In this document: piece by piece, positions 34,900 through 54,321 of the stretch
Layout: each line of letters opens with the position of its first letter
Numbering within the stretch: position 1 is the stretch's first letter
Assembly (NCBI GenBank): GCA_017853275.1
Contig: JAFMJV010000003.1
Coordinates: 1 to 64,000, forward strand
Reading direction: 5' to 3'
Source of the DNA: Chloroflexota bacterium
GTDB lineage: Bacteria > Chloroflexota > Limnocylindria > Limnocylindrales > CSP1-4
Length of the DNA: 64,000 nt
Program-made: the position numbers and the translations under genes
The notes under the pieces: model-generated
What the model was told of the DNA's origin: nothing
What the model saw: only the letters and a program-made list of their open reading frames with translations
Databases searched by the model: none

Positions 34900-34902
34900 C
34901 GC

Positions 34903-36165: not shown

Positions 36166-37385
36166 CCCTCTCCCTCGATCGCGATCTGCTCGACGAACTC
36201 CCAGGTCCCGCTCCCCTCGGCGGCCGGATCCGCCGGCGCGGAGCGGAAGAGCGAGACCCAGCGCTGAACGATATCGCCGTTGGCGTCGAAGGAGATGGGA
36301 CCGAAGACCGACGCGAAGGTCCGGCCGGGGTCGGTGGCGAAGGCCCGGACCGCCTCGCGCTGCGGGTCGGACCCGCCGGCGGCGATCGCCTCGAGGACGA
36401 CATCCGCACAGGCGCTCGCCGTCGCGGCATAGGGCGGCGGCTCGCTGCCGTAGGCGGCGGCGAAGGCTTCCCGGCCCGGGTAGTCGTGGGGCGCCGCCCC
36501 CGCCGACCAGATCTCGCCGCTGCCAGGGCCCGCGGCGTCGAGGAAGGTCCCGGGCATGGAGGCCGGGCCATCGTTCGCGCCCTCGGCCACGAGGTAGGGG
36601 AGTTCCCCGAGCCCGAGCTCCACGAGGGCGCTCCGGAAGGCGCCGGCACCGGTCGCGGGGAGACCCCCGAAGTAGAACGCCTCGGGATCGGTCGCCGCGA
36701 GGCGTTCCGCGATCGCCCGCGGGTCCGCGCTGCCCACCGGCGCGGTCTCGCGCCCGGTGACCTCCCCGCCGAGCTCCATCCAGGCTGCGCTGAAGAGGTC
36801 CGCGATCGTCCGGCCGTAGACGTCGCCGTCATCCACGACCGCGATCCGGGTGAGACCGAGCCGCTCGCGCCCGAGGCGGGCCATCACCGGTGCCTGGACG
36901 GCATCGGTGGCGGAGGTGCGGATGTAGGCCGGCCGGTCCGGCCGGGCGGCGCGGAGCTCGGCAGCGCGCGGCCCCACGGTGAGCTCCGGGAGGGTGTTGC
37001 TCGGGGAACAGAGGAGGAGCCCTGCCTCCGTGGCGATCGGGATGAGGACCTCGGCCACGGACGAGTTGTAGGGGCCGATGACCGCGACCACGGACGGGTC
37101 GGCGACGAGCGCCGCGAGGTCCTCCGCCGCCTTCTCCGGGCTCCGGACCCCGTCCACGGCGTGGTCGAGGACGACGGGCTCGATCCGCACGCCGGGGATC
37201 GCAGCCCCGGCGAGGGTGAGGAGCGCACCCTCGCGGATCGGTCCGGTCGTGGCGAGGATCTCCCCGTTCAGCGGCAGGAGGATGCCGACGCGGACCACGG
37301 TCTCCTCGGCCGCCGCTGCCGGAGTCACGCCGGCGGCCGCGATGAGGAGGGCAAGGGCGATCGTGTGGATCCGGAGCCGGCTCAC
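36162..37385 (-). CDS. LivJ-type periplasmic binding protein (first of three)
   Basis: The product is 407 residues from GTG 37385, which has GAGGA five bases upstream; an in-frame GTG at 37415 would add ten residues and sits leaderless distance from a -10 box at 37421-37426, so the start is open. A Sec signal (RLRIHTIALALLIAAAG...AAAA) is followed by VRVGILLPLNGEILATTG, VIGPYNSSVAEVLIPIATEAGL and VFGPISFDANGD. It is the first gene of the tandem set. The missing transporter genes suggest the set feeds a system elsewhere or works in sensing. Confidence 0.8.
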   Translation of the reverse strand: MSRLRIHTIALALLIAAAGVTPAAAAEETVVRVGILLPLNGEILATTGPIREGALLTLAGAAIPGVRIEPVVLDHAVDGVRSPEKAAEDLAALVADPSVVAVIGPYNSSVAEVLIPIATEAGLLLCSPSNTLPELTVGPRAAELRAARPDRPAYIRTSATDAVQAPVMARLGRERLGLTRIAVVDDGDVYGRTIADLFSAAWMELGGEVTGRETAPVGSADPRAIAERLAATDPEAFYFGGLPATGAGAFRSALVELGLGELPYLVAEGANDGPASMPGTFLDAAGPGSGEIWSAGAAPHDYPGREAFAAAYGSEPPPYAATASACADVVLEAIAAGGSDPQREAVRAFATDPGRTFASVFGPISFDANGDIVQRWVSLFRSAPADPAAEGSGTWEFVEQIAIEGEG

Positions 37386-37420
37386 GGTGGTCCTCGCGGG
37401 CGGGGAGGTCGACACGGGTG

Positions 37421-38571: not shown

Positions 38572-38646
38572 GTCGCGGCGACCGATGGTCGCGCCTTGCC
38601 GGTGGCTGCCCAGCCTCCGGCGCACGATCGGATCTCGAGGTACAGG

Positions 38647-39006
38647 TTGACCAGCGCCCTCTGGTACGTGCTCGGCTTCGCGTTCGCGGGGTTCACGTTC
38701 GTCTTCCTCACGGTGGGCATCTCGTGGCTCATCAGCCACCGCCACCGGAGCGACCGGCACAAGGGCCTCCCGTATGAGTCGGGGATCGACACCTTCGGCG
38801 ACACGTGGGGCCGCTTCGGCCTTTCCTTCTACATCTACGCGCTGCTCTTCGTCGCGTTCGACATCGAGATCATCTTCATCGTGCTCTGGGCGCTGGTCTA
38901 TGGGGATCTTCTCCTCGGCGGCTTCATCAGCATGCTGCTCTTCGTCCTCGTCCTCCTCGTGGGGCTCGGCTACGCCTGGCGCAAGGGGGTCCTCACGTGG
39001 AAGTAG
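38647..39006 (+). CDS. nuoA: NADH-quinone oxidoreductase subunit A
   Basis: NuoA is a small membrane subunit at the join of the membrane arm and the quinone module. The 119-residue protein has three helices, a cytoplasmic loop with YESGIDTFGDTWGRF and the conserved acidic FDIEIIFIVLW helix. I chose TTG 38647 because GAGG lies six bases upstream and this gives the family length; in-frame TTG 38596 and GTG 38602 would add 15-17 polar residues. It is the first gene of an operon of at least 13 coupled genes. Confidence 0.9.
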   Translation: MTSALWYVLGFAFAGFTFVFLTVGISWLISHRHRSDRHKGLPYESGIDTFGDTWGRFGLSFYIYALLFVAFDIEIIFIVLWALVYGDLLLGGFISMLLFVLVLLVGLGYAWRKGVLTWK

Positions 39007-39698
39007 GCAAGCCCGGCGCCCTGGCGGCCGCCACCGGGGCGCTCGTCCCCGCGGATGACGCGTCCGTGAGCACCCCGATCGTCATCCCCAACACCGGCTG
39101 GAGCGCCGCGGACCCCACCGCCTACAACGGCGGCCGTGCCGCCACGGTCGCCCACCTCCACGAGCTGGAGACGATCGGCAAGGGAGACGACGCCCGCTGG
39201 GGTGCCCTGGACGTCATCCCCGCCAAGGCGGACCTCCTCCTGGACTACCTCCGCGCGAACAGCCTCTGGCCGCTCCTCTCGGGGCTCGCCTGCTGCGCGA
39301 TGGAGATGATGTCCGCGGCCACCTCCGTGAACGACATGGACCGCTTCAACATGTTCCCCTTCCGCGCCAGCCCGCGGCAGGCGGACGTGCTCATCGTGGC
39401 GGGGACCCTCTCCACGAAGATGGCCGGTCCCCTCATCCGCCTCTGGGAGCAGATGCCGGAGCCCAAGTGGTGCGTCGCGATGGGCGACTGCACCTGCTCG
39501 GGCGGCCGCTACAAGCGCTCCTACGCCACGGTCCAGGGGATCGACCGCGTGATGCCCGTGGACGTCTACATCCCCGGCTGCCCGCCGCGTCCGGAGGGGC
39601 TGATCTACGGGATGCTGAAGCTCCAGCAGCTCGTCGTCGAGCGGCGCGGCCGGTGGGCCGAGCGGCGCGTCGGCCCCACCGTCCCGGACGGCCTCTAG
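38997..39698 (+). CDS. nuoB: NADH-quinone oxidoreductase subunit B
   Basis: NuoB carries the N2 [4Fe-4S] cluster that passes electrons to quinone. The 233-residue protein has the four ligands: Cys99 and Cys100 (LACCAMEM), Cys165 ([11 protein letters not shown]) and Cys195 (PGCPPRPE). The GTG start overlaps the end of nuoA by ten bases. It has a polar N-terminal extension of about 80 residues before the conserved [12 protein letters not shown] start, longer than most NuoB proteins. No key residue is lost, so quinone reduction should be normal. Confidence 0.95.
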
Positions 39699-39726: not shown

Positions 39727-40365
39727 ATGGCTACGGACAGCGCACTCAAGCGACGCCTCGAGGAGCGGCTCGGTGACCGCCTCGCCGGGCCCGTCCGCGC
39801 GCGCCACGACACGACCGAGATCGTGATCGGCCCGGGCGCCGTGACGGACGTCATGCGCACGCTCCGCGAGGACCCCGCCTTCCGCTTCGAGATCCTCGCC
39901 GACCTCGCGGGCGTGGATACGGGGAGCGTCCTCCAGGTCGTCTACCACCTCTGGTCGCCCCTCTCCTCGGACTGGCTGCGCGTCATCGCGGACGGCCTCA
40001 CACGGGAGGACCCGCGGCTCCCGTCGGTCACCTTCCTGTGGAAGGGCGCCGAGTGGGCGGAGCGCGAGGCGTACGACATGTTCGGGATCGTCTTCGAGGG
40101 GAACCGGGACCTGCGCCGCATCTACATGCCGCCGGACTACAAGGGCTTCCCGCTGCGCAAGGACTTCCTCCTGCCGGACGACTCCGCCCGCTCGCCGGGG
40201 ATGGGGATCCGCTACATGGAGCAGCCCGTCCCCACCGCGGAGAGCGGACGGCGGCCGGTGCTCCGCAGCAGCCCCGGGACCGGGAGCCTCGCCGCCGGGA
40301 GCGGCCGGACGGAGATCGGCGCCGGCGGGACGCGCGCGATCGGGAGCGGGGAGGCCGGGTCATGA
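39727..40365 (+). CDS. nuoC: NADH-quinone oxidoreductase subunit C
   Basis: NuoC is a soluble subunit of the connecting (Q) module. The 212-residue protein has the family signature [31 protein letters not shown] (split here for length: [13 protein letters not shown] followed by MFGIVFEGN and [10 protein letters not shown]) and a disordered Ser/Gly/Thr-rich C-terminus of about 40 residues. AGAT precedes the ATG only weakly. It overlaps nuoD by ATGA, which keeps the two subunits in one-to-one amounts. Confidence 0.93.
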
Positions 40366-41585
40366 CCGAGGCACGCACGCGGATCCCCTCGCTGGACGAT
40401 CCGGAGATCATCGTCGACACCCCCGCGACGATCTACGACGCGATCCCGCCCTACCCGCCGACCACGGAGCGCGAGGCCGAGTTCTACTCGCTGAAGGACG
40501 GCGAGATGCTCATCAACCTCGGGCCCCAGCACCCGTCCACGCACGGCGTCCTCCGGGTCGTGATGAAGATCGACGGCGAGAAGGTCGTGGACCTGGACCC
40601 CGTCCTCGGCTACCTCCACCGCGGCGTGGAGAAGATCTGCGAGAACGGCGACTGGCACCACGCGATCAGCAACTGCGACCCGCTCGAGTACATCGCCTCG
40701 ATGTTCTCGGAGGCGATGCCCGTGATGGTCGCGGAGAAGCTCCTCGACCTCGAGGTCCCGCGCCGCGCGGAGTACATCCGCGTCCTCGCCTGGGAGCTGA
40801 ACCGGATCTCCAGCCACGCGCTCTTCATCGGCTGGCTCGCCCTGGACCTCGGCGCGGTCACCCCGATCCTCTACGGCTTCATCGAGCGCGACGAGATCGT
40901 GGAGATGCTGGCGGCGCTCACCGGCCAGAAGCTCCTCTTCAACTACCTCCGGATCGGCGGCGTGAACGGGGACCTGAACCACGAGTTCCTCAGCCGGCTC
41001 GGTACCTGGATGAGCCACGCGGCGCAGCGGATCGAGGACCAGCAGACGCTCATCAACGAGAACGAGATCTTCATCCGCCGCACCCGCGGCCTGGGTGTGA
41101 TCGACCGCGAGATGGCGCTGAAGATGTGCCTCTCCGGCCCGCCGCTGCGCGCCACCGGGATCCCCTACGACGTCCGCCGCGCGCACCCGTACAGCGTCTA
41201 CCCCGAGCTCGAGTTCGACATCCCCACCCGGACGGAGGGGGACAGCTGGGCGCGCTACTGGCTCCACCTCGAGGAGATCAAGCAGAGCCTCCGGATCATC
41301 GACCAGGTCCTCCACCGGATGCCGGACGGCCCGGTGATGACGAAGCTGCCGCGCCTCCTGCGCGTGCCGCCCGGGCGCGCCTGGGTCGCCTTCGAGAGCC
41401 CGCGCGGCCAGTACGGCGCCTACGGCATCAGCGACGGCACGGACCAGCCCTTCCGGCTGCGCATCCATGACCCGTCCTACTTCAACCTGCAGACCGTCGG
41501 CCTGATGATGCCCGGCCACCTGATCGCGGACACGATGGCGATCATGTCCAGCCTGGACCCGATCATGGGCGGGATCGACAAGTGA
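40362..41585 (+). CDS. nuoD: NADH-quinone oxidoreductase subunit D
   Basis: NuoD forms the quinone pocket with NuoB. The 407-residue protein contains [15 protein letters not shown] with the quinone-site His, the [14 protein letters not shown] segment and the C-terminal DPIMGGIDK. There is a 45-residue N-terminal lead before the conserved core. The ATG overlaps the nuoC stop. The MidA-family methyltransferase at 26672 could modify this subunit, by analogy to NDUFAF7 and NDUFS2. Confidence 0.96.
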
Positions 41586-42979
41586 CCTCGCTGAGCAACC
41601 CCTGGAACCGCCTGACCCTCGCGGGGAAGGTGATCGTCCCGCTCGTCATCGCCCTCATCGGCGTCACGATCGCGCTCGCCGCGGTCTGGCTCTCCGGCTT
41701 CGGCCCGTGGCTCATCCAGTGGCTCCTGGACACGCTCGGCGCGAACATCGGGATCGTCCGCTTCCTCATCGCGACCACGGTGATCCTGCTCATCACCGTC
41801 CCGATCGCCTTCCTGAACATCTTCTTCGAGATGAAGATCATCGCCTTCGTCAACCTGCGGGTGGGCCCCAACCGGACCGGCCCGTGGGGGACGCTGGCCT
41901 CCGTGGTCCACGGCCTGAAGGTGCTCGCCAAGGAGGACTTCACGCCCACCGGCGCGGATGTCCCGGTCTTCACCCTCGCCCCCGCGGTGATCTTCCTCGC
42001 GGCGGTGATGACGCTCCTCGTCGTCCCCTTCGCGCCCGGCCTCTTCGCCTTCGACATGGAGATCGGGCTGATCTACTTCTTCGCGGTCGGCGGCCTCTCC
42101 GTGATCGGCCTGATGATGGCCGGCTGGGCGAGCTTCAACAAGTACTCGCTCCTCGGCGGCCTGCGTGCCGCGGCGGGGATGATCAGCTACGAGCTGCCGC
42201 TCATCCTCTCGGTCGTGGGGATCGTCCTCCTCACCGGCTCGCTCAACCTGACCACGATCGTGGAGGACCAGTCGGGGAGCTTCCTGGACTGGAACATCTT
42301 CCGCCAGCCGCTCGGCGCGATGATCTTCTTCATCGCCGCCACCGCGGAGGGGAGCCGCACCCCGTTCGACCTCACGGAGGCGGACAGCGAGATCGTGGCG
42401 GGCTTCGCCACGGAGTACTCGGGGATGCGCTTCGGCTTCCTCTTCTTCGCCGAGTACGTGAACGTCTTCATCCTCTCGGCGATGACCACGGTCCTCTTCC
42501 TCGGCGGCTGGAACGCGCCGCTGGATATCGACCCGCTGCTGAACTTCTTCGGCATCGCCACCCCGGTGACCGTGGTCCTCGACCCGGGGAGCCTCGGCTT
42601 CGGCCTCCTCGGCGTCATCGCGATCGTGCCGCCGGTCATCACGCTCATCCTCGCCGTCGCGATCCGGATGCTCATCCCCACCTGGGGCTTCCTCCGCTCG
42701 CTCGTCGTCGCCTTCGTCCTCCTGAACATGCTCGTCGTGGGGCTCCTCCTCGGCTGGCTGGCGATCAACCTCGACTGGGTCCTCGGCCTCCTCTGGTTCC
42801 TCATCAAGGCGATCGGCCTCTCCGCCTTCTTCGTCCTCCTCCGCGCCACCCTGCCGCGCGTCCGCGTGGACGAGCTGATGGGCTTCGCCTGGAAGTGGCT
42901 CACCCCTGCCGCGCTGATCAACATCTTCGTGACGGCCGCGGCGCTGATCGTCGTGAAGTCGATGGAGGGCGGCCTGTGA
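41582..42979 (+). CDS. nuoH: NADH-quinone oxidoreductase subunit H
   Basis: NuoH links the quinone pocket to the first proton channel. The 465-residue membrane protein is longer than usual (about 330-420), with an extra hydrophobic N-terminal segment before IAFVNLRVGPNRTGPWG. The loop TPFDLTEADSEIVAGFATEY carries the acidic residues of the quinone-to-channel path, and ATLPRVRVDELMGFAWKW closes the family match. It starts by GTGA overlap with nuoD. In most nuo operons H follows G; here it precedes the rebuilt electron-input genes. Confidence 0.94.
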   Translation: MTSLSNPWNRLTLAGKVIVPLVIALIGVTIALAAVWLSGFGPWLIQWLLDTLGANIGIVRFLIATTVILLITVPIAFLNIFFEMKIIAFVNLRVGPNRTGPWGTLASVVHGLKVLAKEDFTPTGADVPVFTLAPAVIFLAAVMTLLVVPFAPGLFAFDMEIGLIYFFAVGGLSVIGLMMAGWASFNKYSLLGGLRAAAGMISYELPLILSVVGIVLLTGSLNLTTIVEDQSGSFLDWNIFRQPLGAMIFFIAATAEGSRTPFDLTEADSEIVAGFATEYSGMRFGFLFFAEYVNVFILSAMTTVLFLGGWNAPLDIDPLLNFFGIATPVTVVLDPGSLGFGLLGVIAIVPPVITLILAVAIRMLIPTWGFLRSLVVAFVLLNMLVVGLLLGWLAINLDWVLGLLWFLIKAIGLSAFFVLLRATLPRVRVDELMGFAWKWLTPAALINIFVTAAALIVVKSMEGGL

Positions 42980-43815
42980 GGACCGACCGGATCCCCGGCC
43001 TCGGCGTCGTCCGCGGCCTTGTCTTCGCCTTCCGCCAGGCGCTGAAGCCGAAGTACACCGTCCAGTACCCCGAGGTCGTCCAGGAGATCGCGCCGCGCCA
43101 CCGCGGCCGGCTGATCCTCCTCTACGACGAGTACGGCACGCTGAAGTGCGAGACCTGCTTCCAGTGCGCGGCCGCTTGCCCGATCGAGTGCATCGACATG
43201 GGCGGTGTGGACACGAAGAACCGCTTCCACGTCCACTGGGGCCCCGCCGAGCAGTACGCGGAGCGGCGCGAGGAATCCGCCCTCCGGCGCTCCGGCCGCC
43301 CGGTCCCGGACCGGACCTTCTCGGCCTTCGATGCCATCGACCTCGCCCCCCTGGACGCGATCCTCGAGGAGGAGGAGCACCGGCCCCGCCACGCGCTCCG
43401 GATCCTCGAGAAGGCGCAGGCGGCCTATGGCTACCTCCCCGTCGCCGCCCTCCAGCACATCGCCCACCACACCGGCGCCTGGTACAGCGAGCTCTACGGG
43501 ATCGCCACCAGCTACCCGCACCTCCGATTCGAGCCCCCCACCACGCACACGGTGGAGCTCTGCCGCTGCACCGCCTGCCTCCTCGCGGGTGGCGGGCGCG
43601 TCCTCGCCGCCTTCCAGGCCCACCTGGGGACGGAGATCGGCGGCGTGAGCCCGGATGGCGCAGTGCGCCTGGACTCCGCGGACTGCGGCGGCGCCGCACG
43701 CGGCGTCCCGTGGGTGCGCGTGGACGGGAACGTCCTCCCCCGGATCGACGAGAAGGACGCGGCGACGATCGCCGCCCAGGTGCGCGCCACCGTGGCGCAG
43801 GGACGGGTCGCCTGA
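42976..43815 (+). CDS. Fused NuoI(half)-NuoE subunit of complex I
   Basis: The 279-residue protein joins two complex I subunits. Residues 1-75 are NuoI-like (KPKYTVQYPEVV, HRGRLILLYDEYGTLKC) but carry only one [4Fe-4S] motif, Cys58, 61, 64 and 68; the second NuoI motif is absent. Residues 120-279 are the thioredoxin-like NuoE domain (ALRILEKAQAAYGYLP). Its [2Fe-2S] ligands should be CxxxxC and CxxxC: Cys196 and Cys201 are present (plus an extra Cys198), and Cys237 is present, but the fourth position is Ala241. The cluster may be lost or bound with Cys198. GTGA overlap with nuoH and TGATG overlap with nuoF leave no room for a frameshift artefact. Confidence 0.85.
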   Translation: MRTDRIPGLGVVRGLVFAFRQALKPKYTVQYPEVVQEIAPRHRGRLILLYDEYGTLKCETCFQCAAACPIECIDMGGVDTKNRFHVHWGPAEQYAERREESALRRSGRPVPDRTFSAFDAIDLAPLDAILEEEEHRPRHALRILEKAQAAYGYLPVAALQHIAHHTGAWYSELYGIATSYPHLRFEPPTTHTVELCRCTACLLAGGGRVLAAFQAHLGTEIGGVSPDGAVRLDSADCGGAARGVPWVRVDGNVLPRIDEKDAATIAAQVRATVAQGRVA

Positions 43816-45122
43816 TGGAGCTCCTCGCCGGACGGTCGGGCTGGCCGTCCATCCTCCTCGGCCGCGCGGCCACCCTCGCCCCGGACGCGGGCATCGAGGC
43901 CGCGGAAGCAGCCGGCGCCTGGAGCGCCTGGAAGAACGCCGTCGCCTCGATCGCCCCGGATGCGCTCATCGCCTCGGTGGAGCGCTCCGGCCTCCGCGGC
44001 CGCGGAGGCGCCGGCTTCCCGGCCGGCCGGAAGTGGCGCGCGGTCGCGAACGCGGACCGCGGCCAGCGCTACCTGGTCGCCAACGGCTTCGGCGCGGACC
44101 CCGGCGCGCACGCGGAGCGGCTCCTCCTGGAGCGTGACCCGCACGGCGTCCTGGAAGGTCTCGCCCTCGCCGCCTATGCCGTGGGTGCCACGGAGGCCAC
44201 GATCGTCGTCCGGGCCGGCTCCGGATCCGCCGCCGCACGTCTGCGTGCCGCGCTCGCCGCCGCGGAGGAGAAGGGCTACCTCGGGAGCGCCGTCCTCGGC
44301 ACGAGCATCCGCCTCTCCGTCACCGTCCGCGAGCTCGCGGGCTCCTTCGTGACCGGCGAGGAGACCGTCCTCCTCCGCGCGCTGGAGGACCGCCGCGCCC
44401 AGCCGGACCAGCGGCCGCCCTACCCCGCCACCAAGGGCCTCTGGGGCCGCCCCACCCTCGTCCAGAACGTCCAGACGCTCGCCGCCGTCCCGTGGATCGT
44501 GACCCACGGTGCAGAGGCCTTCGCCGCCACGGGGACCCCGGACGCGCCGGGGACGATCCTCCTCTCCCTCTCCGGCGCGCTCGGCCGGCCGGGGATCGTG
44601 GAGGCCCCCATGGGGACGACCCTGCGCGACCTCCTCGACCTCGCGGGCGGCGCCACCGGCACCCTGAAGGCGCTCCTCGTCGGCGGGCCCACCGGCGGCT
44701 TCCTCCCGGCGGCGTCGCTCGACCTTCCGCTCGGCTACGGGACGCTCACCGAGGCGGGCGCGCTCGTCGGCTCCGGGTCGATCCTCGCGGTCGGGTCGGA
44801 GACGAGCATCGTGGAGCTCGCCACCCTCCTCACCCGCTACCTCTCGGACGAATCGTGCGGCAAGTCGATCCCCTGCCGGATCGGCCTGCGCCGCCTTGCG
44901 GAGCTCGGGGATGGCCTGTGCACCGGTCTCTGCCGGCCCACGGACGAGGCGCTCATCCGCTCCCTCTCCGCGGACGTCCGGGATGCCGCCCTGTGCGGCC
45001 TGGAGGCCGGCGCTCCCAACCCCCTCCTCTCCGGGATGCGATACTTCGCGGACGAGTTCGCCGCCGCTTCGGCGGGGGGCTCGGCACCCGCGGCCGCTGC
45101 TCGGCCGGGGGTATCCGCGTGA
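43815..45122 (+). CDS. nuoF: NuoF-like subunit with altered NADH/flavin and cluster residues
   Basis: NuoF normally oxidises NADH with FMN and passes electrons through [4Fe-4S] cluster N3. The 435-residue protein keeps GLRGRGGAGFPAGRKW (59-74), GEE at 181-183, and the late Cys394. Two sets of residues have changed. The NADExEPG segment contacting FMN and NADH is NGFGADPG (90-97), losing two acids. The N3 motif CxxCxxC is Cys348-Gly-Lys-Ser351-Ile-Pro-Cys354, so one ligand is Ser. Ser can ligate iron, so a cluster is still possible. The reading frame is open with normal codon use, so this is a maintained gene, not a pseudogene. Confidence 0.85.
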   Translation: MELLAGRSGWPSILLGRAATLAPDAGIEAAEAAGAWSAWKNAVASIAPDALIASVERSGLRGRGGAGFPAGRKWRAVANADRGQRYLVANGFGADPGAHAERLLLERDPHGVLEGLALAAYAVGATEATIVVRAGSGSAAARLRAALAAAEEKGYLGSAVLGTSIRLSVTVRELAGSFVTGEETVLLRALEDRRAQPDQRPPYPATKGLWGRPTLVQNVQTLAAVPWIVTHGAEAFAATGTPDAPGTILLSLSGALGRPGIVEAPMGTTLRDLLDLAGGATGTLKALLVGGPTGGFLPAASLDLPLGYGTLTEAGALVGSGSILAVGSETSIVELATLLTRYLSDESCGKSIPCRIGLRRLAELGDGLCTGLCRPTDEALIRSLSADVRDAALCGLEAGAPNPLLSGMRYFADEFAAASAGGSAPAAAARPGVSA

Positions 45123-45176: not shown

Positions 45177-47765
45177 ATGACCGACACGCTCCCCGCCAAG
45201 GCCGACCCCTCCCTGGACGCCGTCACCGAGCGCCTGCTGACCACGCAGAGCCCGCAGCGGCCGCTCGTCACGCCCGCCTTCGATGTCGAGATCGACGGCC
45301 GGACCCTGAGCGCGCGCGCCGGCCAGACGATCCTCGAGGTCTGCCGCGAGAACGGCATCGAGGTCCCCACCCTGTGCTACGAGCCCAAGCTCCCGGGCTT
45401 CGGTGCCTGCCGGATGTGCGTCGTGGACGTGGAGGGCGAGGCGAGCCCCCCGATCTCCTGCTCCCGCGAGGCGGAGCCGGGGATGACGGTGCAGACGCAG
45501 ACCCCGCGCCTGCGCCAGATCCGGAAGACGAACCTGGAGCTGATCTTCAGCGACCACAACGCCTACTGCCTGCCGCCCTGCCAGAACCGCTGCCCGTCGC
45601 ACATCGATATCCCGGGCTTCCTGAAGGCGAACACGGAAGGCAACTTCATCGAGTCGGCGCGGATCTTCAAGCGCACGATCCCCTTCCCCTCCGTCCTCGG
45701 CCGCGTCTGCCCCGCCCCGTGCGAGGAGCACTGCCGCCGGGACGAGGTCGAGGAGGCGATCGCGATCCGCGACAGCCATCGCTACGCCGGCGACCAGGTC
45801 CTGAAGGCGCAGGCGGCGGGCATGAAGGCGCCCGTCCCCTTCGAGGTCCAGCCCGCCTCGGGCAAGCGCGTCGCGGTCATCGGCTCCGGCCCGGCCGGGA
45901 TGTCCAGCGCCTACTACCTCGCGATCGCCGGCCACGACGTCACCGTCTACGAGCGCGACCCCGCGCCGGGCGGGATGCTCCGCTACGGCATCCCCCAGTA
46001 CCGGCTCCCCAAGGTCGAGGTCCTCGAGGCCGAGTACCAGGGCGCCTGGGACCTCGGCGTGAAGCTCGTCACGAACGCCGAGCTGGGCAAGGACTTCACC
46101 GTCTCGGACCTCCAGAACCAGGGCTTCGATGCCGTCGTGGTGGCGATCGGCTGCTACGACACGAACCGCCTCGGGATCCCCGGCGAGGACGCGGATGGCG
46201 TGATCGACGGCCTCGAGTACCTCCGGATCGCCACCCTCGGCCTCCCCTATCCGGGCCACGCGGGGACGCGCGTCGTCGTCGTGGGCGGCGGCTTCTCCTC
46301 GATGGACTGCTCGCGCACCTCGGTCCGCCAGGGCGCCGCGGAGGTCACCCTCGTCTACCGCCGGGACATGAAGGACATGCCCGCGGCCTCCGAGGTCCAC
46401 GAGATGCTCGAGGAGGGCGCCCGCGCGATCTTCCAGGCGGCGCCCGTGCGCGTCGTGACGGATGCCGCGAACAAGGTGACCGGGATGGAGTTCATCCGGA
46501 TGGCGCTCGGCGCTCCGGACGCCTCCGGCCGGCGCCGCCCGGAGCCGGTCCCGGGGACCGAGTTCATCATCGAGTGCGACCGCGTCCTCCTCGCGATCGG
46601 CCAGGGGCCGGAGCTCTCCTGGACCTCGCGCGGCGCGGATGGCGTCAACGCGAGCAAGCAGAAGCGCCTCGCGGCGGATGCGATCACCTTCTCCACCGGA
46701 CGCCCCGGCGTCTTCGGCACGGGGGACGTGCGCACGGGTGCCGCCACGGTCGTCGCCTCCGTCGCGGAGGGCCGCCGTTGCGCCTACGCGGTGGACGCCT
46801 ATCTCCAGGGGATGGACCTGGAGGCGATCCGCACGCGCCAGACGCTCGCGGAGCCGCAGCCCGAGTTCCTCTCCATCGTCCCCTACACCGGCGAGACGAA
46901 GCAGCCCCGGATCCGCCTCAAGGGGATGCCCATCGAGGTCCGCAAGGCGAGCTACGTCGAGTACGAGATCCCCTACACGCAGGAAGAGGCGATGGCCGAA
47001 TCGGGCCGCTGCCTCCAGTGCACCTGCGAGGCGATCGGCTACTGCGACCTGCGCCGCCAGGGGATCGAGTACGGGACCACGCTGCGCAAGCTGGAGCCCG
47101 GCCGGGACGGCACCTCGTACCGGAGCGTGAACGAGAACCGCTTCACGGGGATCAACCACGACTACCTCCGGGATGACAGCCACGCCTTCATCCTCCGGGA
47201 GCCGGCCCGCTGCATCGACTGCGGCCGCTGCGCGAACGTGTGCAAGGAGGTCGTGGGGGCCGCCTGCTACGACTTCATGCGCACCGGCTTCGACACGCTC
47301 GTGACGACGCCCCTGGACATGAGCCTGAACACGACGCCCTGCGTCTCCTGCGGACGCTGTGCGGAGACCTGCCCCACGGGGGCGCTCATGCCCAAGCCGC
47401 GCGTCCTCGAGAAGTACGAGGTGGACGAGAGCCGCTGCATCCTGTGCGGGATCTGCGTGGACGCCTGTCCGTACGACGCGCTCCGCTGCGGCCCGGACTT
47501 CGAGCTCGCTCACGAGAGCCGCGAGGAGCCGATGATCGACCTCCTCGCGATCAGCTCCATCGAGCGGGACAGCGAGCTGAGCTACGTGCGTCGCGAGCGC
47601 GACTGGCTTGCCCGCGCCCGCGCCCAGGGGCGCGATATCCCCGCCACCCGCCTCCTCCCGATGCTGCCCACGGGCGTCGCGAACGGGAACGGCAACGGCA
47701 CCTCGGCGAACGGCCACGGGCCGCGCCCGGGCGGTGGCGGCGGCACCCACGCCCACGCGAAGTAG
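45177..47765 (+). CDS. NuoG-like/GltD-like fusion: ferredoxin, FAD-NAD(P) oxidoreductase and polyferredoxin
   Basis: The 862-residue protein replaces NuoG. Residues 33-110 are a NuoG-type [2Fe-2S] domain (Cys67, 78, 81, 95). Residues 125-205 match the GltD/NfnB cluster domain (Cys131, 135, 139; CPAPCEEHC at 178-186). Residues 228-550 are the GltD-type flavoprotein: FAD loop VIGSGPAG (235-242), NAD(P) loop VVGGGFSSMD (368-377), and VYRR (393-396), which in GltD binds the NADPH 2'-phosphate. Then follow clusters at Cys612-623, Cys679-689, Cys722-732 and Cys754-764; the last two and the following FELAHESREE resemble NuoI. No molybdopterin-type domain exists. The tail (835-862) is Asn/Gly/His-rich. 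This points to a second, flavin-based electron entry. Confidence 0.85.
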   Translation: MTDTLPAKADPSLDAVTERLLTTQSPQRPLVTPAFDVEIDGRTLSARAGQTILEVCRENGIEVPTLCYEPKLPGFGACRMCVVDVEGEASPPISCSREAEPGMTVQTQTPRLRQIRKTNLELIFSDHNAYCLPPCQNRCPSHIDIPGFLKANTEGNFIESARIFKRTIPFPSVLGRVCPAPCEEHCRRDEVEEAIAIRDSHRYAGDQVLKAQAAGMKAPVPFEVQPASGKRVAVIGSGPAGMSSAYYLAIAGHDVTVYERDPAPGGMLRYGIPQYRLPKVEVLEAEYQGAWDLGVKLVTNAELGKDFTVSDLQNQGFDAVVVAIGCYDTNRLGIPGEDADGVIDGLEYLRIATLGLPYPGHAGTRVVVVGGGFSSMDCSRTSVRQGAAEVTLVYRRDMKDMPAASEVHEMLEEGARAIFQAAPVRVVTDAANKVTGMEFIRMALGAPDASGRRRPEPVPGTEFIIECDRVLLAIGQGPELSWTSRGADGVNASKQKRLAADAITFSTGRPGVFGTGDVRTGAATVVASVAEGRRCAYAVDAYLQGMDLEAIRTRQTLAEPQPEFLSIVPYTGETKQPRIRLKGMPIEVRKASYVEYEIPYTQEEAMAESGRCLQCTCEAIGYCDLRRQGIEYGTTLRKLEPGRDGTSYRSVNENRFTGINHDYLRDDSHAFILREPARCIDCGRCANVCKEVVGAACYDFMRTGFDTLVTTPLDMSLNTTPCVSCGRCAETCPTGALMPKPRVLEKYEVDESRCILCGICVDACPYDALRCGPDFELAHESREEPMIDLLAISSIERDSELSYVRRERDWLARARAQGRDIPATRLLPMLPTGVANGNGNGTSANGHGPRPGGGGGTHAHAK

Positions 47766-47777
47766 CCGGACGCACGG

Positions 47778-48326
47778 ATGAGCCTCCCCGAGACGATGCC
47801 CTACACCGGTTGGCGCTGGGATGACCTTGTCTTCCTCGCGCTCGCCGGCGTGATGCTCGGCTCCGCGCTCCTCGTCGTCCTCAGCAGGAACATCATCCGG
47901 TCCGGCCTCTTCATGGTCCTCTCGTTCCTCGGGCTCGCGGGCATCTACGCGCTCGCGGGGTCGCCGATCGTGGCGGCCGCCCAGGTCCTCGTCTACATCG
48001 GCGCGATCAGCGTCCTCATCCTCTTCGCGGTCATGCTCACCCAGAGCAAGGCCGGACCGGCCGCGCTCGTCTTCCAGCGCCAGGCGTGGATCGCGGCGAT
48101 CGCCTCGGTCGTCCTCCTCGGCCTGATCGGCGCCTCGATCCTGCTCACCGACTTCCCTGCCGCAGAGGCGCTCCCCACCGTCCACGAGACGCGGGAGGTC
48201 GCCTTCCTGATCTTCGACGCGAACGTCTTCGCCTTCGAGGTCGTCAGCCTCCTCCTGCTCGCGGCGGTCGTGGGCGGGATCTTCATCGCACGCCGCGACG
48301 AGAGCGCGGACGAGGAGGGCGCGTGA
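47778..48326 (+). CDS. nuoJ: NADH-quinone oxidoreductase subunit J
   Basis: NuoJ is a five-helix membrane subunit next to the first antiporter-like subunit. The 182-residue protein has [25 protein letters not shown] with the conserved early helix and [21 protein letters not shown], the broken helix that undergoes the pi-to-alpha change in the proton path. The last ten residues are acidic. It overlaps nuoK by GTGA. Confidence 0.93.
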
Positions 48327-48634
48327 GCCAGTCCCTGGACGCGTACCTGCTCCTCGCGGCGGGGCTCTTCGCGATCGGCACCTTCGGCTTCCTCGCGAAG
48401 CGGAACGCGATCGCGATGCTCATGTCGATCGAGCTGATGCTCAACGCGGTGAACCTCGCGATCGTCGCCTTCGCCCTCTTCACCCCCTCGCTCGGTGCGC
48501 AGGGGTCGGTCATCGCGCTCTTCGTCATGGCGGTCGCGGCCGCGGAGGCGACGGTGGGGCTCGCGATCGTCATCGCGATCTACCGGAACCGCCGCACCCC
48601 GCTCGTGGACGAGTACGCCTCGATGCGGGAGTAG
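48323..48634 (+). CDS. nuoK: NADH-quinone oxidoreductase subunit K
   Basis: NuoK is a three-helix subunit that takes part in proton translocation. The 103-residue protein contains [18 protein letters not shown] with the essential membrane Glu and the later [11 protein letters not shown] with the second acidic position nearby ([10 protein letters not shown]). Length is normal. The GTG start overlaps the nuoJ stop; a 36-base gap leads to nuoL. Confidence 0.94.
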
Positions 48635-48670: not shown

Positions 48671-50707
48671 GTGAGCTTCTTCGCGGAGGCCGGCGGACAC
48701 GCCGGGCACGGGCCGGAGCTCGCCGACCCCACCGCCCAGCTCCTCATCACGCTCCTCATGGCGATCCCGCTGGCGGGCTTCGCCCTCAGCGTGATCCTCG
48801 GCCGCCGGCTCGGCTCGCGGCCGTGGGTGATCGCGGTCCCCGCGATCATCGCCACCTGGCTGATCGCCATGTTCCTCGTCTGGCAGACGCTCTTCGTGGG
48901 CGCCTACGGCGAGTACGGGATCACCTTCACGCTCTACGAGTGGATCCCCGCCGGCCAGTTCCGGGTGGACGCGAACTTCCTCATGGACAACCTGACCGCG
49001 GTGATGCTCATCGTGGTCACCACGATCGGCATGCTCGTCCACGTCTACTCGATCGGGTACATGTCCCACGACCCGTCGAAGTGGCGCTTCTTCGCCTACC
49101 TGAACCTCTTCATGTTCAGCATGCTCCTCCTCGTCCTGGCGGGGAACTACCTCCTCGTCTTCGCCGCGTGGGAGCTCGTCGGCCTCTCCTCCTACCTGCT
49201 CATCGGCTTCTGGTACCACAAGCGCTCCGCGGCGCTCGCGAACAAGAAGGCGTTCATCACGAACCGCGTGGGCGACGTCGGCTTCGCGCTCGGGATCATG
49301 GCCCTCTGGACCACGGTGGGGACGCTGAACTTCACCGAGGTCTTCACGCTCATCCCGGAGAAGGTGGCGGGCGGCGAGCTCGGCCCGGTCCTGATGGCCG
49401 GGATCTGCCTCCTCCTCTTCATGGGCGCGATGGGCAAGAGCGCCCAGTTCCCCCTCCACGTCTGGCTTCCGGACGCGATGGAGGGCCCCACCCCGGTCTC
49501 CGCGCTCATCCACGCGGCCACGATGGTCAACGCCGGCGTCTACCTCGTCGCGCGCAGCTCTCCGGTCTTCGCCCAGTCGGCCGGCGCGCTCCTCCTCATC
49601 GCCTGCCTGGGCGCCTTCACGGCGATCCTCGCGGCCTCGATCGCGCTCACCCAGAAGGACATCAAGCGCGTCCTCGCCTACTCCACGCTCTCGCAGCTGG
49701 GCTACATGTTCCTCGCGCTCGGCGTGGGCGCCTGGATCCCCGCGATCTTCCACCTCGTGACGCACGGCTTCTTCAAGGGCCTCCTCTTCCTCGGCTCGGG
49801 CTCCGTGATCCACGCCGTCCACGAGGAGCAGGACATGGACCGGATGGGCGGCCTGGCGGGGAAGATCAGGATCACCCACCTGACGATGCTCATCGGCACG
49901 ATCGCGATCGCCGGCATCCCGCCCCTCGCGGGCTTCTTCTCCAAGGACGAGATCCTCGGCGAGACCTTCAAGTTCGGCGTCTACGAGCAGGCCTTCTACG
50001 TCCTCTTCGTGGTCGGGATGATCGTGGCCGGGATGACCGCCTTCTACATGTGGCGCCTGATGGGCAAGACCTTCTACGGCAAGAGCCGGGTCGATCCGCA
50101 CGTGGAGCCGAAGATCCACGAGTCGCCGTGGACGATGACCCTTCCGCTGATCCTCCTCGCGATCCCCTCGATCGGGATCGGCCTCGCGCTCGGCTGGCCG
50201 CTCGGTGACAGCACGATCAAGCACTGGCTCGAGCCGGTCTTCCACGAAGCCGAGGTGACCCTCGGACGGGAGCTGCCCAAGGTCCAGCTCTTCGGGATCG
50301 ACGGCATCCTCATCGTCATCGCGGTCTCGGTCGCCACGCTCGGCATCGTCATCGCGGCGGCCCTCTTCGGGATCGGCCGGAAGGACGGCCGGAGCGAGAC
50401 GGTCCGCTCGCTCACCCAGCGGATCCCCTTCGGCCCGGCGCTCTACCGCGCCTCCTTCAACCGCTGGTACTTCGATGACCTCAACCACCTCCTCTTCGTC
50501 CGCTTCGGCGGCGTGGTGGCGGAGAGCGCGGCGATCTTCGACCGCGCGGTGATCGACGGGATCGTGAACGGGACCGCGAAGGTGACCCAGGGCGCGGGCG
50601 ACCGTATCCGCCGGATCCAGACCGGCAAGGTCCAGAACTACGCGCTCGGCATCGCGATCGGGCTGATCGTCATCTCGATCGTCCTCCTCTTCGTGGTGAC
50701 CCGCTGA
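48671..50707 (+). CDS. nuoL: NADH-quinone oxidoreductase subunit L
   Basis: NuoL is the distal antiporter-like proton channel with the long lateral helix. The 678-residue protein has about 16 helices, the conserved Glu in FAAWELVGLSSYLLIGFWY, the proton-path His/Lys region in PVSALIHAATMVNAGVYL, and a C-terminal amphipathic stretch (about residues 560-640) followed by a final helix. GTG 48671 has an AGAGGTGG site. All known key residues appear present, so proton pumping should be intact. Confidence 0.95.
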   Translation: MSFFAEAGGHAGHGPELADPTAQLLITLLMAIPLAGFALSVILGRRLGSRPWVIAVPAIIATWLIAMFLVWQTLFVGAYGEYGITFTLYEWIPAGQFRVDANFLMDNLTAVMLIVVTTIGMLVHVYSIGYMSHDPSKWRFFAYLNLFMFSMLLLVLAGNYLLVFAAWELVGLSSYLLIGFWYHKRSAALANKKAFITNRVGDVGFALGIMALWTTVGTLNFTEVFTLIPEKVAGGELGPVLMAGICLLLFMGAMGKSAQFPLHVWLPDAMEGPTPVSALIHAATMVNAGVYLVARSSPVFAQSAGALLLIACLGAFTAILAASIALTQKDIKRVLAYSTLSQLGYMFLALGVGAWIPAIFHLVTHGFFKGLLFLGSGSVIHAVHEEQDMDRMGGLAGKIRITHLTMLIGTIAIAGIPPLAGFFSKDEILGETFKFGVYEQAFYVLFVVGMIVAGMTAFYMWRLMGKTFYGKSRVDPHVEPKIHESPWTMTLPLILLAIPSIGIGLALGWPLGDSTIKHWLEPVFHEAEVTLGRELPKVQLFGIDGILIVIAVSVATLGIVIAAALFGIGRKDGRSETVRSLTQRIPFGPALYRASFNRWYFDDLNHLLFVRFGGVVAESAAIFDRAVIDGIVNGTAKVTQGAGDRIRRIQTGKVQNYALGIAIGLIVISIVLLFVVTR

Positions 50708-52236
50708 TGCTCGACCTCACCGGCGTGCCGGTCCTCTCGATCCTGCTCGCCGTCCCGCTCGTGGGTGCGATCCTCCTTGCATTCGTGCCCGGGGACCGCC
50801 CGCAGCTGGTCCGGCGTCTCGCGCTCCTCATCGCGCTCGTCACCTTCGGCATCTCGCTCGCCGCGGTCCTCGCCTTCGACCCGGCGCAGAGCGGCTACCA
50901 GCTCCGCGAGACGACCTCCTGGATCCCCTTCTTCGGCATCCAGTACGACCTGGGCGTGGACGGGATCAGCCTCGTCCTCGTCGTCCTCACCACGCTCCTC
51001 TCGTGGATCTCGATCCTCGCCAGCTTCGGGCCGATCCAGAGCCGGGTGAAGGAGTACATGATCTCCTTCCTCGTCCTCGAGGTCGGGATGCTCGGCGTCT
51101 TCCTCTCCCTCGACCTCTTCCTCTTCTACATCTTCTGGGAGATCGTCCTCGTCCCGATGTACCTGATCATCGGGATCTGGGGCGGCGCGAACCGGATCTA
51201 CGCCACGGTCAAGTTCGTCCTCTACACGCTCGTCGGCTCGCTCCTCATGCTCGTGGCGCTCGTGGCGACCGCCTTCAGCTACCAGGTGGCCACGGGAAGC
51301 TGGGACGGAGCCTTCTCGGTGGAGAAGCTGGTCGGCTTCGGCTTCGACCCCACGCTCCAGCTCTTCGCCTTCCTCGCCTTCTTCCTCGCCTTCGCGATCA
51401 AGGTCCCGATGTTCCCGTTCCACACCTGGCTGCCGGACGCGCACGTGGAAGCGCCCACGGCGGGCTCGGTGATCCTCGCGGGCGTCCTCCTGAAGCTCGG
51501 CGGCTACGGCTTCATCCGCTTCGCGATGCCGATCTTCCCGGACGCGGCGCGTGACCTGGCCGGCCCGATCATCGTGCTCAGCCTGATCGCGATCATCTAC
51601 GGCGCGATCGTGGCGATCGTCCAGCCGGACGTGAAGAAGCTGATCGCCTACTCATCGGTCAGCCATATGGGCTTCGTCACGCTCGGCCTCTTCGCCTTCC
51701 AGGAGCAGGCGATGCAGGGCGCGATCCTCCAGATGGTCAACCACGGCCTGATCACCGGCGGCCTCTTCCTGTGCGTCGGGATCATCTACGAGCGGACCCA
51801 TGACCGGACGATCGCCAAGATGGGCGGCCTCGCCGCGAAGACGCCCATCTGGGCCGCGGCCTTCGGCTTCTTCATCATGGCCAGCGTCGGCCTGCCGGGC
51901 CTGGCGGGCTTCGTGGGCGAGTTCCTCGTCTTCCTCGGGACCTTCGCGGTCGATCCGCTCGCTGCGGCGATCGCCAGCCTCGTCATGGTCCTCGGCGCCG
52001 TCTACCTGCTCTGGATGTTCCAGCGGGTGGCCTTCGGCGAGGTCTCCGACTTCCTCAAGGGGCTCGGGCACCACCTGACGGACATGACCCCCACGGAGGT
52101 CCTCACGCTCGCGCCGCTGGCGGCGCTCACGATCGTCATGGGCGTCTACCCGGCGCTCATCCTCGACCTGATCACCGGCCCGGTGAACGAGCTCCTCGCG
52201 GCGCTCGGACCGGCCACCACGGGGATGCTGCCGTGA
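50707..52236 (+). CDS. nuoM: NADH-quinone oxidoreductase subunit M
   Basis: NuoM is the middle antiporter-like subunit. The 509-residue protein has YDLGVDGISLVLVVLTTLL, the acidic residue in LFYIFWEIVLVPMYLIIGIWG, and TWLPDAHVEAPTAGSVILAG. It begins by TGATG overlap with nuoL. Fourteen hydrophobic helices are predicted by eye. Length is typical. Confidence 0.95.
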   Translation: MLDLTGVPVLSILLAVPLVGAILLAFVPGDRPQLVRRLALLIALVTFGISLAAVLAFDPAQSGYQLRETTSWIPFFGIQYDLGVDGISLVLVVLTTLLSWISILASFGPIQSRVKEYMISFLVLEVGMLGVFLSLDLFLFYIFWEIVLVPMYLIIGIWGGANRIYATVKFVLYTLVGSLLMLVALVATAFSYQVATGSWDGAFSVEKLVGFGFDPTLQLFAFLAFFLAFAIKVPMFPFHTWLPDAHVEAPTAGSVILAGVLLKLGGYGFIRFAMPIFPDAARDLAGPIIVLSLIAIIYGAIVAIVQPDVKKLIAYSSVSHMGFVTLGLFAFQEQAMQGAILQMVNHGLITGGLFLCVGIIYERTHDRTIAKMGGLAAKTPIWAAAFGFFIMASVGLPGLAGFVGEFLVFLGTFAVDPLAAAIASLVMVLGAVYLLWMFQRVAFGEVSDFLKGLGHHLTDMTPTEVLTLAPLAALTIVMGVYPALILDLITGPVNELLAALGPATTGMLP

Positions 52237-53753
52237 CCCAGAACGAGTGGCTCGCGCTCGCCCCCTTCATCATCGTCTCCACGCTCGCGATCCTGATCGT
52301 CGTCGTGGACATGATCCGGCCGGGCCGGGACCACCTGGCCGCGGTCATCGGTGCGGTCGGCGTCCTCGTGGCCATGGGTGCCACGATCGCCGCGGGCCCG
52401 ATCGGCGGCCTCGGCGGCCTCCCTCCGGAGGGGATGGCGCTCTTCGGCGGCGTCTACGTCCGGGACGGCATGACCGCCTTCCTCGACCTCCTCTTCCTTG
52501 GCATCGCCCTCCTCACGATCCTCTTCGCGCCGGACTACCTGATCCCCCGCAAGCTGCCGGTGCCGGAGTTCGTCTCCGTCCTCCTCTTCGCGGTCGCGGG
52601 CGCGATGCTCCTCGGCGGCGGACGGGATCTCCTCATCCTCTTCCTCGGCCTCGAGCTCCTCGTCCTCCCCGGCTACCTCCTCGCCGGCTTCAGCAAGCGC
52701 GACGGGCTCTCCACCGAGGGCGCGATCAAGTACTTCCTCCTCGGATCGTTCTCCAGCGCGATCCTCCTCTTCGGCCTCGTCTTCGTCTTCGGCTACACCG
52801 GGACCACGAACGTGGCGGAGATCGGCGACCGGCTCGCGGCGATCGCGAGCGGGGACGCCCCGCTCCCCGTGGCGCTCGGGATGGGGATGGCGCTCGTCCT
52901 CACCGGCGCCGCCTTCAAGATCGCGGCGGTCCCCTTCCACTACTGGACGCCGGACGCCTACCAGGGCTCCCCCACGCCGGTCACCGGCTACCTCTCCGTG
53001 GGCCCCAAGGTCGCGGCCTTCGCCCTCGTCCTGCGCCTCTTCATGGAGGCGCTCGGCCCGGTCCGCGCGGACTGGTGGGTCCTCATCGGCGTCCTCGCGG
53101 CGATCACGATGACCGTGGGCAACCTCGCGGCGCTCGGCCAGGACAACATCAAGCGGATGCTGGCGTACAGCTCGATCGCGCACACCGGCTACATCATGGT
53201 CGGGCTCGCGGTGGCGGGCGGGGCCACGGACCCGGAGGTCGCCGCCTCGGGCGTCCAGGGGATCCTCTTCTACGGCTTCGCGTACGCGGCGATGAACCTC
53301 GGTGCCTTCGCCGTCGTGGCGGCGCTCCAGCACCGCCCCGGCGTGACGAGCCAGATCTCCTCGTTCGCCGGGCTCGGCCGGCGCGCCCCGATCCTCGCGG
53401 TCGCGATGACCCTCTTCCTCCTCTCGCTCGTGGGGATCCCGCCCACCGCCGGCTTCTTCGGCAAGGCGGTCATCGTCATCGCTGCGGTGGAGGGCGGCGG
53501 GCTCCTCACCCTCCTCGCGGTCGTGATCATGCTCAACGCGGCGGCGGCGGCCTTCTACTACCTGCGCGTCGTCGTCGTCATGTACATGCGTGACCCGGCG
53601 GAGAACGCGAAGCCGGTGGACGTGGGCGGCTGGACCCGGCTGGGGCTCATCGTGGCGGGAGCCGCCACGATCGCGATCGGCCTCATCCCCGCCGTGACGG
53701 GCGCCGCGCTCGACTGGACCCTGGAGGCGGCGAAGACGATCGCGGGCCTCTAG
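52233..53753 (+). CDS. nuoN: NADH-quinone oxidoreductase subunit N
   Basis: NuoN is the antiporter-like subunit closest to NuoK. The 506-residue membrane protein has LLILFLGLELLVLPGYLLAGF with the conserved Glu, FHYWTPDAYQGSPTPVTGYLSVGPK, and AYSSIAHTGYIMVGLA. It begins at a GTG overlapping the nuoM stop and ends the operon, as a terminator hairpin follows within 30 bases. Confidence 0.95.
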   Translation: MTQNEWLALAPFIIVSTLAILIVVVDMIRPGRDHLAAVIGAVGVLVAMGATIAAGPIGGLGGLPPEGMALFGGVYVRDGMTAFLDLLFLGIALLTILFAPDYLIPRKLPVPEFVSVLLFAVAGAMLLGGGRDLLILFLGLELLVLPGYLLAGFSKRDGLSTEGAIKYFLLGSFSSAILLFGLVFVFGYTGTTNVAEIGDRLAAIASGDAPLPVALGMGMALVLTGAAFKIAAVPFHYWTPDAYQGSPTPVTGYLSVGPKVAAFALVLRLFMEALGPVRADWWVLIGVLAAITMTVGNLAALGQDNIKRMLAYSSIAHTGYIMVGLAVAGGATDPEVAASGVQGILFYGFAYAAMNLGAFAVVAALQHRPGVTSQISSFAGLGRRAPILAVAMTLFLLSLVGIPPTAGFFGKAVIVIAAVEGGGLLTLLAVVIMLNAAAAAFYYLRVVVVMYMRDPAENAKPVDVGGWTRLGLIVAGAATIAIGLIPAVTGAALDWTLEAAKTIAGL

Positions 53754-53780
53754 GAGGACCGCCGGACCGCCACCCCATCG

Positions 53781-53800
53781 CCCCGGCCGGACGGCCGGGG
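53781..53800 (+). terminator. Terminator hairpin at the end of the nuo operon
   Basis: CCCCGGCCG (53781-53789) pairs with CGGCCGGGG (53792-53800) around GA, followed by CTTCGTC rather than a full T run. It lies between convergent genes, so it may serve both strands. Confidence 0.6.
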
Positions 53801-53805
53801 CTTCG

Positions 53806-54321
53806 TCATCCCCCCGGGGTGATCCCGCGCTCGGCGTCGTCGTGCGACCAGACGTCCAGGTCATCCAGGGTGAGGCCGTCCACCCCGTGGGCGGTGAGGA
53901 TCGCGAAGACCTGCGCCCGGTGCTCCGTGGCGTGGTGGATCGCCTGGGCGAGGACGACGGAGCGCGGCACCACGCGTTGACCGGAGCCGTAGTCGTAGCG
54001 GAGGATCGGCTCGCCCCCCTCCGCGGCGAGCGCCCGGAGCCGGACCCCGTGCGCGGCCGCATCCGCGGCGAGCGCGCGGAGGGCGGCGTGGGTCGGCGCC
54101 TCCACGGGATCCGCGGGCCGCGGCTGCCCCGTGGCCCGGGCGACGTAGCCCGCGTGCCCGGCCACGAGGTGGTGGACCGTCTCCGCGATCGTCCCGAAGC
54201 TCCCCGGCGCCGTCCGCCCGAGGAGCTCCTCGGGGAGGGTGAGGAGGTGCGCGATCATCCGCTCCGTCGCCCAGGCGTCGTGGCGGAAGAGCCGGTCGAG
54301 GACCGGATCCGGCAGCGTCAC
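53806..54321 (-). CDS. DinB-family protein
   Basis: The 171-residue protein is a DinB-like four-helix bundle. The metal-binding His residues are present: one in IAETVHHLVAGH (about residue 45-56) and a pair in AIHHATEHRAQVF. Family members include thiol-dependent S-transferases (bacillithiol, mycothiol) and proteins of unknown role. GTG 54321 overlaps the stop of the secreted cupin protein upstream, so it is co-translated with it. No substrate can be assigned. Confidence 0.8.
   Translation of the reverse strand: MTLPDPVLDRLFRHDAWATERMIAHLLTLPEELLGRTAPGSFGTIAETVHHLVAGHAGYVARATGQPRPADPVEAPTHAALRALAADAAAHGVRLRALAAEGGEPILRYDYGSGQRVVPRSVVLAQAIHHATEHRAQVFAILTAHGVDGLTLDDLDVWSHDDAERGITPGG

Follow-up and report, generated by a model that had tools for sequence, protein, structure and literature searches.

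Organisation of the operon

The window analysed here is a 64,000-nucleotide stretch of a draft Chloroflexota genome (119 contigs, estimated to be 93.8% complete). It carries, on the forward strand, a long nuo operon that opens with nuoA (38596–39006; PF00507, E=1.7e-30), nuoB (39048–39698; TIGR01957, 211.6 bits), nuoC (39727–40365; PF00329, E=5e-37) and nuoD (40362–41585; NCBIfam NuoD models, 418 bits). The start of nuoB is uncertain but its product has the N2 cysteines (in ACC, GDC and PGC). The next gene (41582–42979) matches the nuoH that canonical Chloroflexota operons have flanked by nuoG and nuoI. There follow a fusion of the N-terminal half of NuoI to a NuoE-like protein (42976–43815), a degenerate nuoF (43815–45122) and an uninterrupted frame of 862 amino acids (45177–47765), the product of which we call GltG, for GltD–NuoG fusion protein. 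The operon is completed by nuoJ (47778–48326), nuoK (48323–48634), nuoL (48671–50707), nuoM (50707–52236) and nuoN (52233–53753), all forward-strand ORFs in the order seen in relatives.

The order in the window is A-B-C-D-H-[I5':E]-F-[GltG:I3']-J-K-L-M-N, compared with B-C-D-E-F-G-H-I-J-K-L-M-N in five canonical Chloroflexota operons, and the E-F-GltG segment has the order found in three operons for Stn-type transhydrogenases. All components of the quinone/membrane core (NuoA, B, C, D, H and J–N, with the N2 cysteines) are present. Three complex I traits are missing from the operon: an intact one-chain NuoI, a molybdopterin-type NuoG and a NuoF with an NADE-type loop and four N3 cysteines.

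An assembly artefact was considered and rejected, as the operon order recurs in independent metagenome-assembled genomes (MAGs) from many studies and a related four-gene cluster is found in complete genomes. Readthrough of TAG, considered for one family in which a TAG lies inside the matches, was rejected too, the codon being an ordinary stop that follows a conserved RERPTR. A scan of positions 34000–56000 gave no Rfam match. Adjoining the operon on the reverse strand (34903–37415) are two tandem genes that resemble, by eye, those for ABC-type branched-chain amino acid substrate-binding proteins.

The GltG protein

GltG was identified from its ORF, from Pfam and NCBIfam matches and from structure matches. 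Pfam recognises Fer2_4 (residues 36–109), Fer4_20 (131–210), Pyr_redox_2 (231–532), Fer4_Nqo3 (672–737) and Fer4 (747–770), confirming an earlier sequence-only reading in which one frame of the nuo operon joined a NuoG-like [2Fe-2S] domain to a GltD-like FAD/NAD(P) module. The first of these, at 45282–45503 (PF13510), includes C67, C78, C81 and C95; the second, a GltD/NfnB module at 45567–46811, comprises an HxxxCxxxCxxxC motif and the FAD and NADP domains, and the VIGSGPAG, VVGGGFSSMD and VYRR motifs listed in that reading are all found in the protein. Further downstream lie a CLQCTC...C cluster motif (47010–47045; C612, C615, C617 and C623, kept in 115–116 of 116 homologues), a double ferredoxin motif of the NuoG/HydA type (47190–47396; C679–C732; PF22117, PF12838) and, at the C-terminus, the second half of NuoI. 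The reported absence of a molybdopterin-type domain also held up: Pfam finds no PF00384 in GltG, and the FdhF-like C-terminal domain of StnC thus has no counterpart in it.

Beyond the [2Fe-2S] ligands, GltG has 22 motif cysteines, each kept in 113–116 of the 116 homologues. Six are in the GltD part (131, 135, 139; 178, 182, 186) and the remainder in the C-terminal part (612, 615, 617, 623; 679, 682, 685, 689; 722, 725, 728, 732; 754, 757, 760, 764). Together with H127 and H201, these would fit about six [4Fe-4S] sites, so that the extra clusters proposed earlier stand whilst their number, given then as four, does not.

Among solved structures, 9bov, 8oh5 and 9n5u come nearest in sequence and, by fold, these are the third subunits of Nfn-ABC and StnABC. 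The closest kin of GltG is the GltD–NuoG fusion of the Stn/Nfn-ABC enzymes, rather than GltD or NfnB alone. AlphaFold models built from 21 and 63 sequences are confident for the GltD module, with pLDDT below 50 for residues 635–809.

StnC has been shown experimentally to oxidise NADPH, electrons passing from NADPH to FAD and then through a linear series of clusters into the NuoF-like subunit, and its cryo-EM structure identifies K170 as a ligand of the FAD-proximal cluster (PMC10482914). The cysteines that GltG shares with StnC-type proteins are invariant in a 42-sequence set. The equivalent of StnC R239, which is R276 in GltG, and the second arginine of VYRR are each present in 116/116 homologues; within the nucleotide fold, residue 373 has changed from Asn to Phe/Tyr. 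Judged by its residues, which match those of StnC, the GltD-type FAD/NADPH site of GltG is intact, and homology suggests a preference for NADPH. At the position of K170, all 116 GltG homologues have histidine (H201) and both Stn-type controls have lysine, and this substitution cleanly marks the complex-I-linked form.

A split NuoI

When the NuoI model TIGR01971 is searched against the whole genome, it returns two equal best matches and no intact NuoI over the cut-off. One match covers profile positions 1–67 (43015–43218, forward strand; 45.4 bits) and contains the first ferredoxin motif, CETCFQCAAACP, the four cysteines of which are kept in 56/56 sequences. The other covers positions 71–115 (47400–47534, forward strand; 45.5 bits) and contains the second, CILCGICVDACP. 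Only about four profile positions separate the two. Joined end to end, the halves reach 98.4 bits; singly they score 47.1 and 48.0 bits, and the cut-off is 113. The 5' half is fused to NuoE (42976–43815), NuoI models matching residues 9–80 of the product and PF01257 residues 125–267, with the thioredoxin-fold domain at 43354–43782; the 3' half is fused to the C-terminus of GltG. The sequence-only reading had described the last motifs of GltG as NuoI-like, and the complementary profile matches go further: the final motif is the other half of NuoI itself, the one missing from the NuoE fusion.

A cluster in a double-cluster ferredoxin is held by three cysteines of one motif plus a fourth that the other motif supplies. 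Should the two NuoI halves assemble in trans, as we infer that they do, this pattern means that clusters N6a and N6b would both be ligated across two polypeptides.

Distribution and origin

Relatives of GltG were found in 107 of 400 sampled Chloroflexota genomes (E<=1e-100), a figure that includes some true Stn or shorter GltD matches, and this recurrence is well beyond chance. A scan of named genomes, covering the best 80 loci, placed them in Candidatus Limnocylindrus, Candidatus Aquidulcis, Thermogemmatispora, Ktedonobacter robiniae, Dictyobacter vulcani and many Chloroflexota MAGs. These names suggest that the window genome is a member of the class Limnocylindria. One of these 80 loci is a Ktedonobacteria-like cluster in a MAG titled Proteobacteria, which is probably misassigned. 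The sequence-only reading had proposed looking for the same fusion in the nuo operons of other bacteria, where it does occur: the complete A–N order with a split nuoI is present in at least 22 named contigs of the Limnocylindria type, and each of the Limnocylindria-type loci listed has at least one nuo neighbour.

A canonical NuoG or NuoI encoded elsewhere in the window genome was considered and rejected, genome profile searches having found neither. A canonical nuoG of this kind had been named in the sequence-only reading as a finding that would count against it. The sole PF00384 match in the genome lies on another contig, in a formate-dehydrogenase-like gene, and no PF00384 match at E<=1e-10 is found in seven of the 24 genomes of the class, one of which is 99% complete in seven contigs. 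None of the 24 has a NuoI over the cut-off; in other Chloroflexota, such a NuoI is present. The single molybdopterin-family gene of the window genome (contig C83) has an in-frame TGA, between IDSCNRT and HAPSVAGL at position 1735 of locus L001, which several relatives share, and probably encodes a selenocysteine formate dehydrogenase.

A different arrangement is seen in Ktedonobacterales and other GltG-carrying Chloroflexota, which have an intact NuoI, a canonical nuo operon and a separate cluster, nuoB-[I5':E]-F-[GltG:I3']. At seven loci this four-gene cluster lies beside a full canonical nuo operon, and it could possibly be swapped in as a head on the same membrane arm. Cultured Thermogemmatispora and Dictyobacter are among the bacteria with this four-gene cluster. 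Three further loci, in some large Ktedonobacteria genomes, have lone GltG genes with no nuo neighbours detected. One more genome has an apparent A-B-C-D-H-[I:E]-F-GltG nuo operon with the beginning of another nuo A-B-C-D set nearby, and an intact NuoI elsewhere.

In a NuoF tree, all NuoF proteins of the GltG-operon type fall on one side of a branch that separates them from canonical NuoF and StnB (support 100/99), and in a GltG tree all GltG proteins with NuoI halves are similarly separated from Stn proteins (100/100). Since each tree sets this type apart by one branch, both are compatible with a single origin. Comparison of the gene order D-H-[I5':E]-F-[G:I3']-J with the canonical D-E-F-G-H-I-J suggests that a three-gene cassette was inserted into nuoI. 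The simplest history would be one in which the old nuoEFG genes were lost and an stnABC-like cassette entered nuoI, separating its two motifs and becoming fused in frame on either side.

Electron entry

The NuoF of the window scores 346 bits with TIGR01959, against a cut-off of 558, and has NGFGADP in place of an NADE-type flavin loop and CGKSIPC as its N3 motif. In canonical NuoF the loop reads N-x-D-E, with the Asp and the Glu each present in 6/6 proteins. The Asp has become Tyr in 84 of 98 proteins of the GltG-operon type, and the Glu is kept in 29 of 83 Limnocylindria-type proteins. The second N3 cysteine (Cys352) is replaced by Thr, Ser or Ala (Ala in nine) in 80 of these 83. The fourth N1a cysteine of NuoE is found in 0/56 sequences, the other N1a cysteines are usually lost too and, in deeper lineages, the [2Fe-2S] part of NuoE is truncated. 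Across the same set of GltG genomes, identity is 58% for NuoF, 77% for NuoD and 80% for GltG; between canonical operons it is 60% for NuoF and 59% for NuoD. These residue losses and the faster divergence of NuoF indicate that the NADH site is under relaxed constraint and the GltD module under strong constraint.

On the evidence of the sequences, we consider it rather better than an even chance that the operon's product is an NADPH:quinone oxidoreductase that pumps protons, in which an input head like that of the Stn and Nfn-ABC enzymes has been inserted into nuoI and NuoF is bypassed. The head would consist of the NuoE-like and NuoF-like proteins and the GltD–NuoG fusion, mounted on the membrane/quinone core of complex I. 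NADPH would reduce the FAD of the GltD module, from which electrons would pass to two proximal clusters and then, by homology with the chain of StnC, to a His/Cys-ligated N5-type cluster, the one that feeds N6a in complex I. From there, they would flow through N6a and N6b of the split NuoI, the two halves meeting as one double-cluster ferredoxin with cysteines of both polypeptides at each cluster, to N2 on NuoB and finally to quinone. NuoF and NuoE, with their degenerate flavin loop, N3 and N1a sites, would be retained mainly as structure. The sequence-only reading had electrons entering complex I from the GltD flavin, bypassing or adding to NuoF. Entry at that flavin is supported as an interpretation and, because NuoF is degenerate, bypassing is to be preferred to adding.

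Some flavin or NADH function may nevertheless remain in NuoF, most homologues of which retain GRGG, Lys74, GEE and three of the four N3 cysteines, and some of which also keep the loop Glu, as noted above. The remaining N3 cysteine is itself kept in three Limnocylindria-type proteins, as it is in all 15 deeper homologues and the six canonical ones. This would be expected of an enzyme with dual input, in which NADH reacts at the NuoF FMN and NADPH at a second site, the GltD FAD, giving a complex I with a built-in transhydrogenase. The prevalence of the Asp-to-Tyr change and of the N3 substitution, the loss of N1a and the faster evolution of NuoF make this unlikely, although it is the strongest of the alternatives.

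PntB is encoded in 17/17 genomes of the class, including those of 1.1–1.2 Mb, in 12 of 28 GltG-negative relatives and in one of 12 other GltG carriers. As the genomes are related, this count is only suggestive of an NADPH-fed complex. In the window genome, PntB is found on contig C38 with a 640-amino-acid GltD-like protein (34597–36000 and 52560–54209), about 17 kb apart. The C-terminal domain of NDH-2 was not found in the organism's own family and order, which is a weak test; as no NDH-2-type dehydrogenase was detected there, NADH is presumably oxidised in some other way. PntAB would make NADPH from NADH, and the GltG complex would then pass electrons from NADPH to quinone. In its fullest form, the NADPH:quinone oxidoreductase reading posits an obligately NADPH-driven pump with NuoE and NuoF as scaffolds, N6a and N6b each on two polypeptides, the whole NADH pool routed through PntAB and the cassette sited in nuoI. 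To this combination as a whole we give somewhat less than an even chance.

Both complex I and Stn-type modules can work in either direction, and the complex might instead run backwards, quinol and the proton-motive force driving NADP+ reduction. Stn activities have indeed been recorded in both directions (PMC10482914). We think this improbable here: PntB, a source of NADPH driven by the proton-motive force, is already present in every class genome tested, and since no other complex I was seen, nor any NDH-2 signature in the family or order, a forward route of respiratory entry is needed.

It is more doubtful still that the head bifurcates or confurcates electrons with ferredoxin in the flavin-based manner of Stn or the predicted Nuo-Bfu. 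The E-F-C gene trio and the domain order are those of Stn, and the clusters that serve bifurcation sit in the N- and C-terminal extensions of StnB (PMC10482914, PMC9304861). The NuoF of the window, at 436 amino acids, has neither extension (StnB frames of the Stn type are 598–624 amino acids long), and the NuoE cluster is lost as well. Finally, GltD family models match the central portion of GltG with good scores, but that it is an unrelated glutamate synthase or Nfn merely sited in the operon is scarcely credible, given that it holds the missing half of NuoI and that the operon order is kept across many genera.

Comparison with known systems

The usual description of complex I is of an NADH-oxidising enzyme whose N-module is conserved, the exceptions being forms that use ferredoxin or F420H2 and predicted bifurcating heads. 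If the NADPH:quinone oxidoreductase reading is correct, this pump accepts a different donor at a different entry point (N5, from an NADPH-type FAD), and the role of the N3-N1b-N4 arm becomes testable. A ferredoxin subunit split over two chains, with both clusters between subunits, would be architecturally rare. Freshwater and soil bacteria such as Candidatus Limnocylindrus and Candidatus Aquidulcis belong to the group, and annotating them with a standard NADH complex I would give a false account of their energy metabolism. The sequence-only reading knew of no described complex I with this subunit, and our search of the open-licence literature likewise found no description of one with a GltD-type subunit or a split NuoI.

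The StnABC transhydrogenase of Sporomusa ovata (8oh5/8oh9; PMC10482914) resembles the head described here in its trio of NuoE-like, NuoF-like and GltD–NuoG proteins, its FAD/NADPH site and the shared cluster cysteines. StnABC is a soluble, bifurcating enzyme in which StnC has an FdhF-like domain and Lys170 as a ligand (PMC10482914), whereas the present genes belong to a complex I operon and encode a GltG with His201, no FdhF domain and a fused NuoI half, and a NuoF without the extensions. The Nfn-ABC enzymes of Caldicellulosiruptor (9bov) and Thermococcus sibiricus (9n5u) are the best matches in sequence and fold (36–37% identity in the fold search) but, unlike GltG, these soluble transhydrogenases have no tie to the membrane subunits of complex I.

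The nearest published idea is the Nuo-Bfu predicted by Schut et al. (PMC9304861), in which complex I bears a bifurcating BfuABC head. There too, a trio from the bifurcation family replaces NuoEFG inside a nuo cluster, and Nuo-Bfu is reported in that account from Deferribacteres, Proteobacteria, Planctomycetes and Nitrospirae (PMC9304861). The description there mentions neither a GltD/NADP module nor a split NuoI, and its BfuB keeps the bifurcating clusters B2–B5 (PMC9304861), the extensions for which are absent from the NuoF here.

With the canonical 14-subunit complex I, represented by four Chloroflexota loci, the operon shares A, B, C, D, H and J–N and their order. It differs in every other respect compared: the canonical enzyme has an intact NuoI, a molybdopterin-type NuoG, canonical NuoF and NuoE and the order D-E-F-G-H-I-J. 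We class the product of the GltG operon as a variant of complex I, one that keeps the core of the enzyme and departs from the canonical N-module, from Stn and from Nuo-Bfu alike.
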